From contig JACRIE010000022.1 of the NCBI GenBank assembly GCA_016220165.1, positions 17,009-81,008 of the forward strand: DNA of 64,000 nucleotides. The letters are read 5' to 3'. Origin of the DNA: Candidatus Peregrinibacteria bacterium. GTDB lineage: Bacteria; Patescibacteriota; Gracilibacteria; UM-FILTER-43-11; JACRIE01. Position numbers and translations under genes: made by a program. Shown here one piece after another: positions 12,307 through 63,006 of this stretch (position 1 is its first letter; each line of letters starts with the position of its first letter). The notes under the pieces are model-generated. The model was not told where the DNA came from and searched no databases. It saw only the letters and a program-made list of their open reading frames with translations.

Positions 12307-12372
12307 CGACAATTGACCTTTGACTTTTGACTTTGAATTTAGGTCAAACGTCAAATGTCAGGTGTCAAATGT
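12307..12372. repeat. Inverted heptad array, TGTCARR family
   Basis: CGACAATTGACCTTTGACTTTTGACTTTGAATTTAGGTCAAACGTCAAATGTCAGGTGTCAAATGTT. Confidence 0.85.
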
Positions 12373-12390
12373 TAAAAATTTATTTTATAA

Positions 12391-12618
<228 letters not shown>

Positions 12619-15275: not shown

Positions 15276-15280
15276 TAAAA

Positions 15281-15383
15281 CACCTGGCACATAACTGATG
15301 ACATCTGACAAAATTCTTTGATTTAAAAAGTCAGGTGTCAAATGTCAGGAGTCAGGTGTAAAAATTTTATCCGATAAAATTTT
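15281..15383. repeat. Inverted heptad array (TGTCARR) plus AAAATTTTATC-C-GATAAAATTTT palindrome abutting the atpG ATG
   Basis: Array 15281-15360, palindrome 15361-15383, ATG at 15384. Confidence 0.85.
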
Positions 15384-16298
15384 ATGGCCAAAGATCTCGA
15401 CATTCGCCGGCGCATCAAATCCGTGAAGAGCACGCGCTCGATCACGAAAGCCATGCAGATGGTGTCTGCCAGCAAAATGAGGAAAGCGCAGGAACAAGCC
15501 TTAAAAACGAGAAATTACGCCTTAAAATCTCTTGAAATTCTAGCCACAATTTCAGGAAAAATTACGGATTATCCACACTATTTATTGGCTCGGCCTGAAA
15601 AAAAGCGCTGCCTCATGCTCCTAATCACTTCCAACAAAGGATTGTGCGGCTCGTTGAATGCCAATGTCATGAGAAAAGCATTCGATTTCGTTGAATTCAT
15701 GAAAAGTAATAAAGGCGTCGAGGCGGAAGAAGTTGATTTTGTGACCCTTGGAAAAAAAGGAAGAGACATGCTCTTCCGTGCCGGAAAAAAAGTCATTGCT
15801 GATTTTTCGGATCTTGGCGAAAGCCTCTCTGTTCTCAATATAGGGGCCATCACCAAACTCATTTTTGGCGAATTTCAAACTCAAAATTACAGCCGCATTT
15901 ACATCGCCTACAGCCATTTTGTTTCTGTTCTTTCGCAAAAACCCGTTGTGAAGAGACTTTTGCCGCTCGATAAGGGTATTTTGGAATATTTGGAAGAAGT
16001 CCTGAATAAAAAAAAGGAAGATTTACAAAGAGATTCCTATGAGTATCTTGTTGAACCGAATCCAAAAGAACTATTAGAGGATCTGCTTCCGCGACTCGTA
16101 GAGATTCAAATATTCCAATCCTACCTGGAAGGCTACGCATCAGAACAATCCGCGCGCATGGTAGCCATGAAAAACGCCACCGAAGCCGCCGGCGATCTGA
16201 TTGAAGATCTCACGCTCACATACAATAAAGCCCGCCAAGCAGGCATCACGCAGGAGATCTCCGAAATCGTGGGCGGTGTTGAGGCGCTTAAAAAATAA
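15384..16298 (+). CDS. atpG: ATP synthase subunit gamma
   Basis: IRRRIKSVKSTRSITKAMQMVSASKMRKA; TYNKARQAGITQEISEIVGGVEAL. Confidence 0.95.
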   Translation: MAKDLDIRRRIKSVKSTRSITKAMQMVSASKMRKAQEQALKTRNYALKSLEILATISGKITDYPHYLLARPEKKRCLMLLITSNKGLCGSLNANVMRKAFDFVEFMKSNKGVEAEEVDFVTLGKKGRDMLFRAGKKVIADFSDLGESLSVLNIGAITKLIFGEFQTQNYSRIYIAYSHFVSVLSQKPVVKRLLPLDKGILEYLEEVLNKKKEDLQRDSYEYLVEPNPKELLEDLLPRLVEIQIFQSYLEGYASEQSARMVAMKNATEAAGDLIEDLTLTYNKARQAGITQEISEIVGGVEALKK

Positions 16299-26611: not shown

Positions 26612-28573
26612 TTACTTTAAAAAATTAAATCTCTCTTTCCTCCCGAACTCCAAAAACCCTTCCGCAATCTCGTCCAAATCATGATCCAGGACTTTGTGTC
26701 CTCTCATATCACGGACAAAATTGCCGTTCGGATCTTTTTTGTAAACATAGTCGCCGGAGTTGTCTTTGCCCGCCTTTTTTGAAACGGCCATGAAGATGGG
26801 GTAATCGGGCTGCGGATCGCCCACTTCACCACCCCACTTTTGAAGGAAGAGGACGCTCGTTTTGGTGCCCGTATGGGGTTTGAAAGTATTGCCGTGCAGG
26901 CCGACCACCGCGAGAATGCGCACTTTTTCAAAGAGGTACTGGCGCACGTATTCCATGTTGGTGTTATTCAGCACGCCCTGCGGGAGCACAATGGCCATGC
27001 GGCCGCCGGGGCGGAGCATGTCGAGAGTACGCTCGATGAAGAGGATGTGGCGCTCGATCTTGCTGACGAGCTTTCCGCGTTTTTTACCAAAAAAATACTG
27101 GCGTAAAAGCCCTCCATCTTTGATCTCACCTGCAAAAGGAGGATTGGTGAGAAGAACGTCAAAACCGAAATAATGGAAAGTGCGTCTATTCTCGGCGGCG
27201 TCAGCTGAATTTTCCATGGGCAACAACCGCTTCTGCAGTTCGCTACGGGCATGCAGAAGGATTTGTGATTCACCCTGCCATTCACGCGGATCAAGACTGT
27301 TTAGCTTGAACATGTGCGAGCGCCCGTCGCCGGCGATCAGCATAAGCGCGCGGGAAACGCGCGAGATTTCCTCGGCAAAATCAATGCCCCAGATGTATTC
27401 TTTCGCATATTCTCGCTTGGACTCTTCGCTATTACCAAGATGTTTTTCATTCACATAATTCATGGCCTGAATCAAAAAACCGCCTGAGCCTGCGGCAGGA
27501 TCAATCACATATTCATCCCTTTTTGGATTCAGCATTTTAACCGCCATCGAAATGGCGTGACGGGGAGTAAAATACTGGCCTTTTTTGCCTTTTGCCACCT
27601 CAGGAATCAAATATTCAAACGCCTCGTCAATAATAGAAAGATCTGAACCAAACAAGCGGGTTTTCTCAAGCTCAGCCACCACGATAGAAAGATGCTCAGG
27701 CGAAAGGCTGATGTTATCCTGTTCGTGGAATGTATTAGGCCATTTTTTGATCGCTTTTTTAAAAAGATCATTGATGACCGCGTAAGTTTTAGACGGATCT
27801 TTATATTTTCGGAAAAATACCTCATGATCCGGCCGGCTTAGACGCGCTTCATTTTCATCAAATAATTTGGCGTAAATTAACTTAAAAACTTCGGTAAAGA
27901 CATCAACGCCCGCGTTCGCCAGCACCAGCTCTTCCATACTCTCGACAATTTTCTTAAGTTCGGTTTTGCTAGTCGTATATTCAAACAGGGTCTTTTTGGA
28001 CTCCAGAAGATCATCAATCGTCTGACTGGCTTTTGGCAGATCGGGCAAAGTGTCATCAAATTCCTTGGGATAAGGACGGTACAGGATGATCCGCTGGACG
28101 CCATTAGACCAAAAACCAATTTCCGCCCCTTCGGCACTCAGATAACTTTTCAACTGTTCTATCCCCTTCTTTTCGGACGGAGATTTCACTTCAATAATGA
28201 TATAAGGAGTGATTTTATCCGACTTATAAATAATGATGTCGGCCGCCTTTGCATGAATCTCGCGCCCAAAATGAATACTTTTTTCGGTATCAATACGGTC
28301 AATTGGATATCCATATGAGCGGGTCAACTTATAGAGCCAAAGCTGACGGATAATTTCTTCCGGCTTCCCCTTGCCCTTATTTTCATTCAGCACTACCTTT
28401 TTCCCTCCCGATTTCAAATCTTTTACAAAAAATTCTCCCTGTTCTTCCTCGGTAATTTCAAGAGCCTCATCAAAATTGATTCCATCAAATTCTTTTAGGC
28501 CGTAAGCCATATCCGGATCATGGAAGATTTTATCCAGAATTTCCAGGGTCTTGTTTAACTTTTGAGTGGGCAT
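26612..28573 (-). CDS. Fusion of HsdR_N-like PD-(D/E)XK nuclease domain and N6-adenine DNA methyltransferase
   Basis: N-terminal KAADIIIYKSDKITPYIIIEVKSPSEKKGIEQLKSYL; C-terminal DPAAGSGGFLIQAMN and LLTNPPFAG methylase motifs. Confidence 0.82.
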   Translation of the reverse strand: MPTQKLNKTLEILDKIFHDPDMAYGLKEFDGINFDEALEITEEEQGEFFVKDLKSGGKKVVLNENKGKGKPEEIIRQLWLYKLTRSYGYPIDRIDTEKSIHFGREIHAKAADIIIYKSDKITPYIIIEVKSPSEKKGIEQLKSYLSAEGAEIGFWSNGVQRIILYRPYPKEFDDTLPDLPKASQTIDDLLESKKTLFEYTTSKTELKKIVESMEELVLANAGVDVFTEVFKLIYAKLFDENEARLSRPDHEVFFRKYKDPSKTYAVINDLFKKAIKKWPNTFHEQDNISLSPEHLSIVVAELEKTRLFGSDLSIIDEAFEYLIPEVAKGKKGQYFTPRHAISMAVKMLNPKRDEYVIDPAAGSGGFLIQAMNYVNEKHLGNSEESKREYAKEYIWGIDFAEEISRVSRALMLIAGDGRSHMFKLNSLDPREWQGESQILLHARSELQKRLLPMENSADAAENRRTFHYFGFDVLLTNPPFAGEIKDGGLLRQYFFGKKRGKLVSKIERHILFIERTLDMLRPGGRMAIVLPQGVLNNTNMEYVRQYLFEKVRILAVVGLHGNTFKPHTGTKTSVLFLQKWGGEVGDPQPDYPIFMAVSKKAGKDNSGDYVYKKDPNGNFVRDMRGHKVLDHDLDEIAEGFLEFGRKERFNFLK

Positions 28574-52228: not shown

Positions 52229-52606
52229 TTATGTCTTGGATTCTTTAACGCGACCGCTGCCAACCGTCACGCGCTTGCCGCGCTTAGTGCGGGCATTGGT
52301 ACGAGTCCGCTGTCCACGGGCGGGAAGACGCCGACGATGACGATAGCCACGATAAGAACCGATTTCTTGCAAACGCTTAATGTCCGTGGCGATTTTACGT
52401 CTTAAGTCACCTTCTAATATCCATTTTGAAACCGTCTCACGGATACGATCGCCTTCTTCATCTGTGATAGCTTCAACGCGCTTATTTTTATCAATTTTTA
52501 ATTGATCCAGGATTTGGCGGCTCCGGGAGCGGCCAATGCCGTAAACATAAGTTAACGCGGCCTCTATACGCTTTCCTTTAGGTAAATTGATTCCGGCAAC
52601 ACGCAT
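52229..52606 (-). CDS. rpsM: Ribosomal protein S13
   Basis: RVAGINLPKGKRIEAALTYVYGIGRSRS; GYRHRRRLPARGQRTRTNARTKRG. Confidence 0.95.
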   Translation of the reverse strand: MRVAGINLPKGKRIEAALTYVYGIGRSRSRQILDQLKIDKNKRVEAITDEEGDRIRETVSKWILEGDLRRKIATDIKRLQEIGSYRGYRHRRRLPARGQRTRTNARTKRGKRVTVGSGRVKESKT

Positions 52607-52631
52607 TTCAAAATTTTATAAGATAAAATTT

Positions 52632-52710
52632 TTACATCTGACGCCTGACATTTGACATCTGACTTTGAAATGCTTTCTGGTCAAGTGTCATGTGTCAATC
52701 GTCAGACGTT
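52632..52710. repeat. Inverted heptad array, TGTCARR family
   Basis: ACATCTGACGCCTGACATTTGACATCTGACTTTGAAATGCTTTCTGGTCAAGTGTCATGTGTCAATCGTCAGACGTT. Confidence 0.85.
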
Positions 52711-62602: not shown

Positions 62603-62905
62603 TTACTTAGTGGGAGCGGCGGCGGTAGCGGCATCCGCCTTGGCGATCTTGCCGCCGTGAGCTTTGAATTTACGAGTAGGGGCGAATTCGCCGAGCTTGT
62701 GTCCAACCATATTCTCCGTGACAAAAACAGAAATATGGGATTTGCCATTATGGACGCCGAAGGTAAAACCTACAAAATCGGGAGTAATGGTGCAGGAGCG
62801 GGCCCACGTGCGGATCACTTTCTTGTCGCCGGATGCGTTGGACATTTGAACTTTTTTGAGAAGATTCAGATCAACGTAGGGACCTTTCTTTAAGCTGCGG
62901 CTCAT
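62603..62905 (-). CDS. rpsS: Ribosomal protein S19
   Basis: [65 protein letters not shown]. Confidence 0.95.
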
Positions 62906-62935
62906 CGTAAAATTTTACGAAATAAAATTTTTACT

Positions 62936-63006
62936 TTTGACAGTTGACCGTTGACAATTGACTTTTTGAATTTTAAGTCAAGTGTCAGGTGTCAAATGTC
63001 AATTGT
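62936..63006. repeat. Inverted heptad array, TGTCARR family
   Basis: TTTTGACAGTTGACCGTTGACAATTGACTTTTTGAATTTTAAGTCAAGTGTCAGGTGTCAAATGTCAATTGTT. Confidence 0.85.

Follow-up and report, generated by a model that had tools for sequence, protein, structure and literature searches.

An A/T palindrome locked to start codons, with an adjoining array stem, as a recurrent element of one CPR class and a candidate signal for translation initiation

It is not settled how a start codon is chosen where there is no Shine-Dalgarno (SD) sequence, least of all in uncultured CPR bacteria, and the gene for the ATP synthase gamma subunit in a Peregrinibacteria genome raises it in a concrete form: what is the A/T palindrome that lies directly against its ATG? 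The window analyzed here is the 64,000-nucleotide stretch of contig JACRIE010000022.1 that contains this gene. On the forward strand, the palindrome occupies positions 15361-15383, with 0 nt between it and the atpG ATG at 15384 (atpG, 15384-16298, Pfam PF00231), and as RNA it is predicted to form an A/U hairpin of -2.5 kcal/mol with an in-context probability of 0.92. A predicted long stem-loop built from inverted TGTCARR-type arrays (15280-15359; RNAfold -30.6 kcal/mol, 24 pairs) ends 1 nt 5′ of it. Two further copies lie on the minus strand, each 3 nt from an ATG, at 52610-52632 before rpsM (uS13; 52229-52606, Pfam PF00416) and at 62909-62931 before rpsS (uS19; 62603-62905, Pfam PF00203), the latter with an in-context probability of just 0.30. 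Both are again preceded, 1 nt to the 5′ side, by a predicted long array stem-loop on the same strand, located at 52634-52709 (-33.7 kcal/mol, 29 pairs) and 62933-63003 (5′ boundary approximate; -24.7 kcal/mol, 25 pairs), respectively. A degenerate copy, AAAAATTTATTTTATAAACTTTT, is found on the forward strand (12374-12396) and ends 6 nt short of the atpE ATG at 12403 (ATP synthase c subunit; 12403-12618, Pfam PF00137). This copy carries 2 mismatches, does not fold alone, and is separated by a 7-nt gap from its own predicted long array stem-loop (12308-12366; -24.3 kcal/mol, 23 pairs). A first-pass annotation of the window had placed palindromes against the atpG, rpsM, and rpsS starts, and this placement is confirmed, with Pfam support for the gene identities (obtained for these four window genes only) and with 3 exact matches in the window versus 0 in 100 dinucleotide shuffles of it. 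The annotation also had the atpG coordinates right, drew the rpsM and rpsS intervals one base too long each, and correctly noted a looser version at atpE, which it ran on to position 12402 (12374-12402). Elsewhere in the window, on the minus strand (26612-28573), a single protein contains both HSDR_N and N6-methylase domains and is, by Pfam, a single-chain restriction-modification-like enzyme.

To place these copies in their genome, we searched for the pattern AAAATTTTA-N(1-6)-TAAAATTTT, in which a centre of 1-6 nt is allowed; the statistics rest on pattern searches of the whole genome and on 320 kb of sampled sequence. The 1.217-Mb genome holds 19 exact copies, compared with 0 for the reversed control pattern, and the total length is 23 nt in every exact match despite the variable centre allowed. 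When up to 3 mismatches are tolerated, 48 matches are found genome-wide versus 22 for the control, and among the 3-mismatch matches, 12 that lack a clear dyad were left out of the examination. The first-pass annotation had stated that its reading would fall if palindromes were positioned at random relative to start codons across the genome. The palindromes are not placed in this way: every one of the 19 exact copies and the 7 copies with a single mismatch, 26 in all, lies 0-4 nt before the ATG of a long ORF, and nine weaker copies examined, including that of atpE, lie -1 to +6 nt from the ATG. The commonest spacing between palindrome and ATG is 3 nt (16 copies), followed by 0 nt (7 copies). 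Dyads of the same 10+3+10 geometry and other sequence, surveyed in the 320 kb of sampled genome, form no family clustered at starts and are scattered and mostly intragenic. When starts are taken as a whole, the average pairing of their upstream regions is little different from that of shuffles. Chance or A/T composition is ruled out as the cause by the shuffles, the reversed-pattern control, and the start-locked position, and a feature common to all starts is likewise ruled out, as a start either has a clear 10+3+10 dyad or has none, and weak dyads are few. The palindrome composite is a real, discrete cis-element that recurs inside one CPR class.

The palindrome precedes about 35 genes in this genome, mostly housekeeping ones such as groEL, frr, glmS, purF, and mraY, so the earlier description of a unit belonging to ATP synthase and ribosomal genes was too narrow. 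By recognition of their sequences, we take the downstream genes to include atpG, atpE, rpsM, rpsS, rpsG, rplI, frr, prfA, alaS, hisS, dnaG, ssb, a rpoD-like gene, nusA, groEL, clpC, mraY, ftsA, glmS, purF, nadK, metK, gapA, glyA, ilvC, and trxA, along with others. A same-strand open frame ends 44-260 nt upstream of most element-bearing genes, and many copies are therefore probably operon-internal.

On the mRNA, the order of parts is a long stem, 0-2 nt, the A/U hairpin, 0-6 nt, and the AUG. The arrays 5′ of the palindrome consist of ~7-nt repeats of several types (TGTCARR, ATTAGAA, GTGACGA, ATTCAAA, TTACAAG), usually in inverted pairs, so that the RNA is predicted to fold as a long stem. This inverted pairing was missed in the earlier reading of the arrays; for most copies, only 0-2 nt separate the predicted stem from the palindrome. 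In folding predictions with a threshold of -8 kcal/mol, 26 of 35 own-genome copies have a hairpin that ends no more than 6 nt from the palindrome, mostly at 0-2 nt. The palindrome follows the consensus AAAWWUUUAY-NNN-RUAAAWWUUU, often with YYC as the loop, and is predicted to fold into a 9-10-bp A/U hairpin, mostly of -2 to -4 kcal/mol and near 0 for a few copies; the in-context hairpin probability is high in most copies and low in eight (L003, L016, L025, L026, L027, L029, L032, L034). Of the module of array, palindrome, and ATG first proposed, the modularity and the non-chance association survive and the tie to TGTCARR does not. A TGTCARR-specific unit is ruled out because several other array types adjoin the palindrome, and an inverted repeat, TGTCATTCTGAG...GAATGACA, can occupy the same place. 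At two loci of a relative that reads UGA as Gly (L215 and L216 of genome G121), this inverted repeat is the stem before the palindrome and no heptamer array is present, which suggests that the stem module is interchangeable. Intergenic DNA in general has a 7-nt periodicity, with a lag-7 identity of 0.323 versus ~0.275 at most other lags, and in the window and contigs C24, C26, and C65 of the same genome this periodicity is accompanied by many heptamer-like array families in the spacers. Among the spacers of at least 45 nt there, 33% are predicted to form a hairpin at least as strong as -18 kcal/mol, compared with 14% in dinucleotide shuffles, and these hairpins often end no more than 30 nt from the ATG, even where there is no palindrome.

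The exact palindrome also occurs in three further genera of the same order, and a degenerate search adds more. Of the sites fetched from order relatives, 22 are located at starts, 3-6 nt before the ATG, with the start of one (L173) being uncertain and perhaps GTG; the genes concerned include purF, glmS, groEL, frr, rplI, rpmI, rplT, dnaK, and trxB. Within the order, orthologous genes are occupied in 5 of 13 families (groEL, purF, glmS, frr, and rplI; p ~1e-4), and atpG orthologues of order-mates carry no such palindrome. The relatives' arms vary yet remain complementary (AAATTTTTATTTCATAAAAATTT, TAAAATTTATTCCATAAATTTTA), and in orthologues the array sequences differ, with the predicted stem still abutting the palindrome in most relatives. 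Several degenerate matches in order relatives lie off starts and (e.g., L137, L138, L148, L174, L176, L177) were treated as chance. A small uncharacterized protein starting MGEGD[FY][IM]P carries the element in three genera (L140, L147, L166). Genome G121, from a different family of the class, gives 21 matches versus 0 for the control, and its element-bearing genes form open frames only if UGA is translated as Gly (code 25). These genes presumably correspond to mraY, DHFR, lexA, ruvB, lgt, pyk, and groEL, which they resemble, and orthologous occupancy extends to this genome for mraY and groEL. The match count is close to control in A/T-rich family f15 of the class, and single exact matches in two genomes (G042, G090) do not lie 0-6 nt before a long ORF. 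A phylum-wide element is ruled out, with sporadic single matches only outside the class.

What, then, does the element do? The first-pass annotation had reported no SD sequence at these starts, and this extends across the sample, where SD-like tetramers are present at 4.3% of starts versus 7.9% for a control window placed farther upstream. The genome encodes a protein with four S1 domains. The 16S rRNA gene is absent from the assembly of this genome despite 98% estimated completeness, which is probably an assembly gap, and the anti-SD was accordingly judged from the 16S of relatives. In order-mates, the 3′ end of the 16S retains CCTCC or a close version of it, which counts against the initiation reading preferred below; just before CCTCC they vary GGATCA (GGAATA, GGATTA). 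In G120, a UGA=Gly sister of G121 that also carries the element, the 16S tail (L231) has CCACC in place of the anti-SD CCTCC.

On balance, we consider it rather probable that the composite is a tandem-hairpin RNA element through which translation of SD-less genes is controlled at the initiation step, either as an enhancer or as a gate. In essence, the element would be a cis-acting RNA in the mRNA leader or intercistronic spacer, where a variable long stem-loop, then the conserved A/U hairpin, and then the AUG would follow one another, filling the region 5′ of the AUG that usually holds the SD, and it would be read by the 30S subunit or by an RNA-binding protein. We infer the folding in vivo, the action on translation, and the identity of the reader from these sequence patterns. 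A bolder form of this reading, which we hold only tentatively and think unlikely in its full extent, is a new class of SD-independent signal: the long stem, stacked on the A/U hairpin, would position the 30S subunit on the adjacent AUG as a stand-in for the SD helix at selected housekeeping genes, and would be kept across the CPR class, in Peregrinibacteria and UGA=Gly relatives. The weakness of the hairpin alone (-2 to -4 kcal/mol), at a position where ribosomes usually need open RNA, counts against a role in initiation.

The main rival is a site that acts as DNA, and comparison of the two palindrome arms bears on it directly. In the own genome, 329 of 350 arm pairs are complementary, versus 313 on average and 327 at most for shuffled halves, and double arm changes number 11 versus 2.8 expected (sd 1.4; reached in 0 of 500 shuffles), with 0-3 in slid controls. 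Own-genome pair 5/19 covaries (Fisher p=2e-5). The 22 sites of relatives were partly picked for their palindromic look, which biases their covariation count, and the own-genome and G121 counts are unbiased. Compensatory changes thus exceed both shuffles and slid controls, as expected of an RNA hairpin, but mutation that keeps palindromes perfect could mimic them, and covariation is for this reason not proof of RNA pairing. The bases of pair 10/14 vary partly independently (C-A is common), which argues against RNA pairing, as do the near-invariant core TTTAY...RTAAA and the constant length, which a DNA-binding dimer would also fit. The loop provides a further distinction, as its C:G ratio stands at 42:9 for the own genome (p=5e-4 relative to the local background) and at 31:0 for the order relatives (p=1e-7), more than the local C/G bias accounts for. 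In groES-groEL, both in the own genome and in G018, a CIRCE lies upstream of groES, whereas the element occupies the groES-groEL spacer; in dnaK of G017, the element is part of the leader, downstream of a CIRCE in which a TATAAT is embedded. The element is thus not itself an HrcA/CIRCE operator (TTAGCACTC-N9-GAGTGCTAA), since groES and dnaK each have their own CIRCE site farther upstream in these loci. Taken together, the compensatory arms, the strand asymmetry of the loop, the upstream CIRCE, and the abutting single-strand stem favour RNA.

We therefore regard as unlikely, though still the best of the alternatives, a 23-bp dyad that a dimeric regulator or a nucleoid protein would bind as its operator and that may overlap the -10-like TAAAAT of a leaderless promoter, so that transcripts would begin at the ATG or close to it, with the upstream stem ending the previous transcript. 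The fixed 23-bp geometry, the near-invariant symmetric half-sites, and the A/T flanks would suit such a site, and leaderless mRNA would account for the tight lock to the start codon. The -10-like TAAAAT lies 3-9 nt before the ATG, compared with the 6-7 nt expected of a leaderless-gene promoter, but at 0-nt spacing it is just 3 nt away and it is lost in the arm variants TAAAAA and TAAATA. A symmetric operator also sits poorly with the strand-asymmetric loop and with an element inside HrcA-type transcription units, downstream of their CIRCE promoters. Moreover, the preceding stem is not an intrinsic terminator, since it is followed by AAAATTTT and then the ATG, with no T run. Of the translation-initiation or operator unit envisaged at first, the initiation-level role is thus the better reading and the operator the less likely one.

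mRNA processing or stability is a less probable account, in which a double-strand RNase would cut the 20-40-bp array stem, and the A/U hairpin, which would then form the 5′ terminus of the cut RNA, would protect or expose the downstream cistron, giving unequal expression within an operon. The long stems directly 5′ of the palindrome and the many probably operon-internal copies (atpE, atpG, rpsM, rpsS, and groEL, given the same-strand stops upstream) are consistent with this, but processing by itself leaves the lock of the hairpin 0-6 nt from the ATG unexplained, and palindromes without a strong adjoining stem exist (L013, L024, L029). A neutral or selfish short repeat spreading through intergenic DNA, functionless at starts, would fit the multi-copy, patchy distribution across genomes and the repeat-rich spacers but is very improbable, as 0 of 26 good copies lie away from starts, loops and arms differ between copies, unlike fresh copies of one mobile unit, flanking arrays differ, and orthologous genes in other genera keep the element.

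A sequence-defined, start-locked element shared across genera and two genetic codes offers a concrete test object for start-codon choice without an SD; if it is a regulatory switch instead, the housekeeping genes that carry it would form a regulon, in a group for which very few regulators are known. At the gathering score, Rfam gives no match in the window, and in 7 loci the sole sub-threshold match is a miRNA model far below the cut-off. The element is apparently undescribed in the open literature, where our search covered initiation in CPR bacteria, heptamer repeats, and hairpins close to starts and gave no account of it.

Several known systems share parts of this arrangement. In E. coli, a U/A-rich translational enhancer bound by S1 raises initiation at atpE and works with an SD. 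The element described here is likewise A/U-rich directly 5′ of atpE, whereas the E. coli enhancer has no conserved palindrome and is not multi-copy. RNA thermometers and similar 5′UTR hairpins gate initiation, and the weak A/U hairpin next to the AUG might do the same here; unlike RNA thermometers, however, the element has no SD to mask, housekeeping targets, and a sequence-conserved stem. SD-less starts in the same broad lineages are the subject of a study of SD-scarce bacteria, which names Peribacter (Peregrinibacteria) and SR1 (Absconditabacteria); the section consulted covers scarcity of SD and anti-SD use without a replacement element, whereas here an element is present (PMC10783764). The nearest described case, by its heptanucleotide arrays near starts, is that of the TAACTGA direct repeats of Beggiatoaceae, which lie just upstream of start codons, within several nucleotides of them and often without an RBS, and which are proposed in that study to be read post-transcriptionally by S1, Csp, or Csr (PMC4679880). 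The Beggiatoaceae repeats are direct and without predicted structure, whereas the arrays here are of other heptamers, inverted, stem-forming, and variable in sequence, and are joined to a conserved 23-nt A/T palindrome (PMC4679880).
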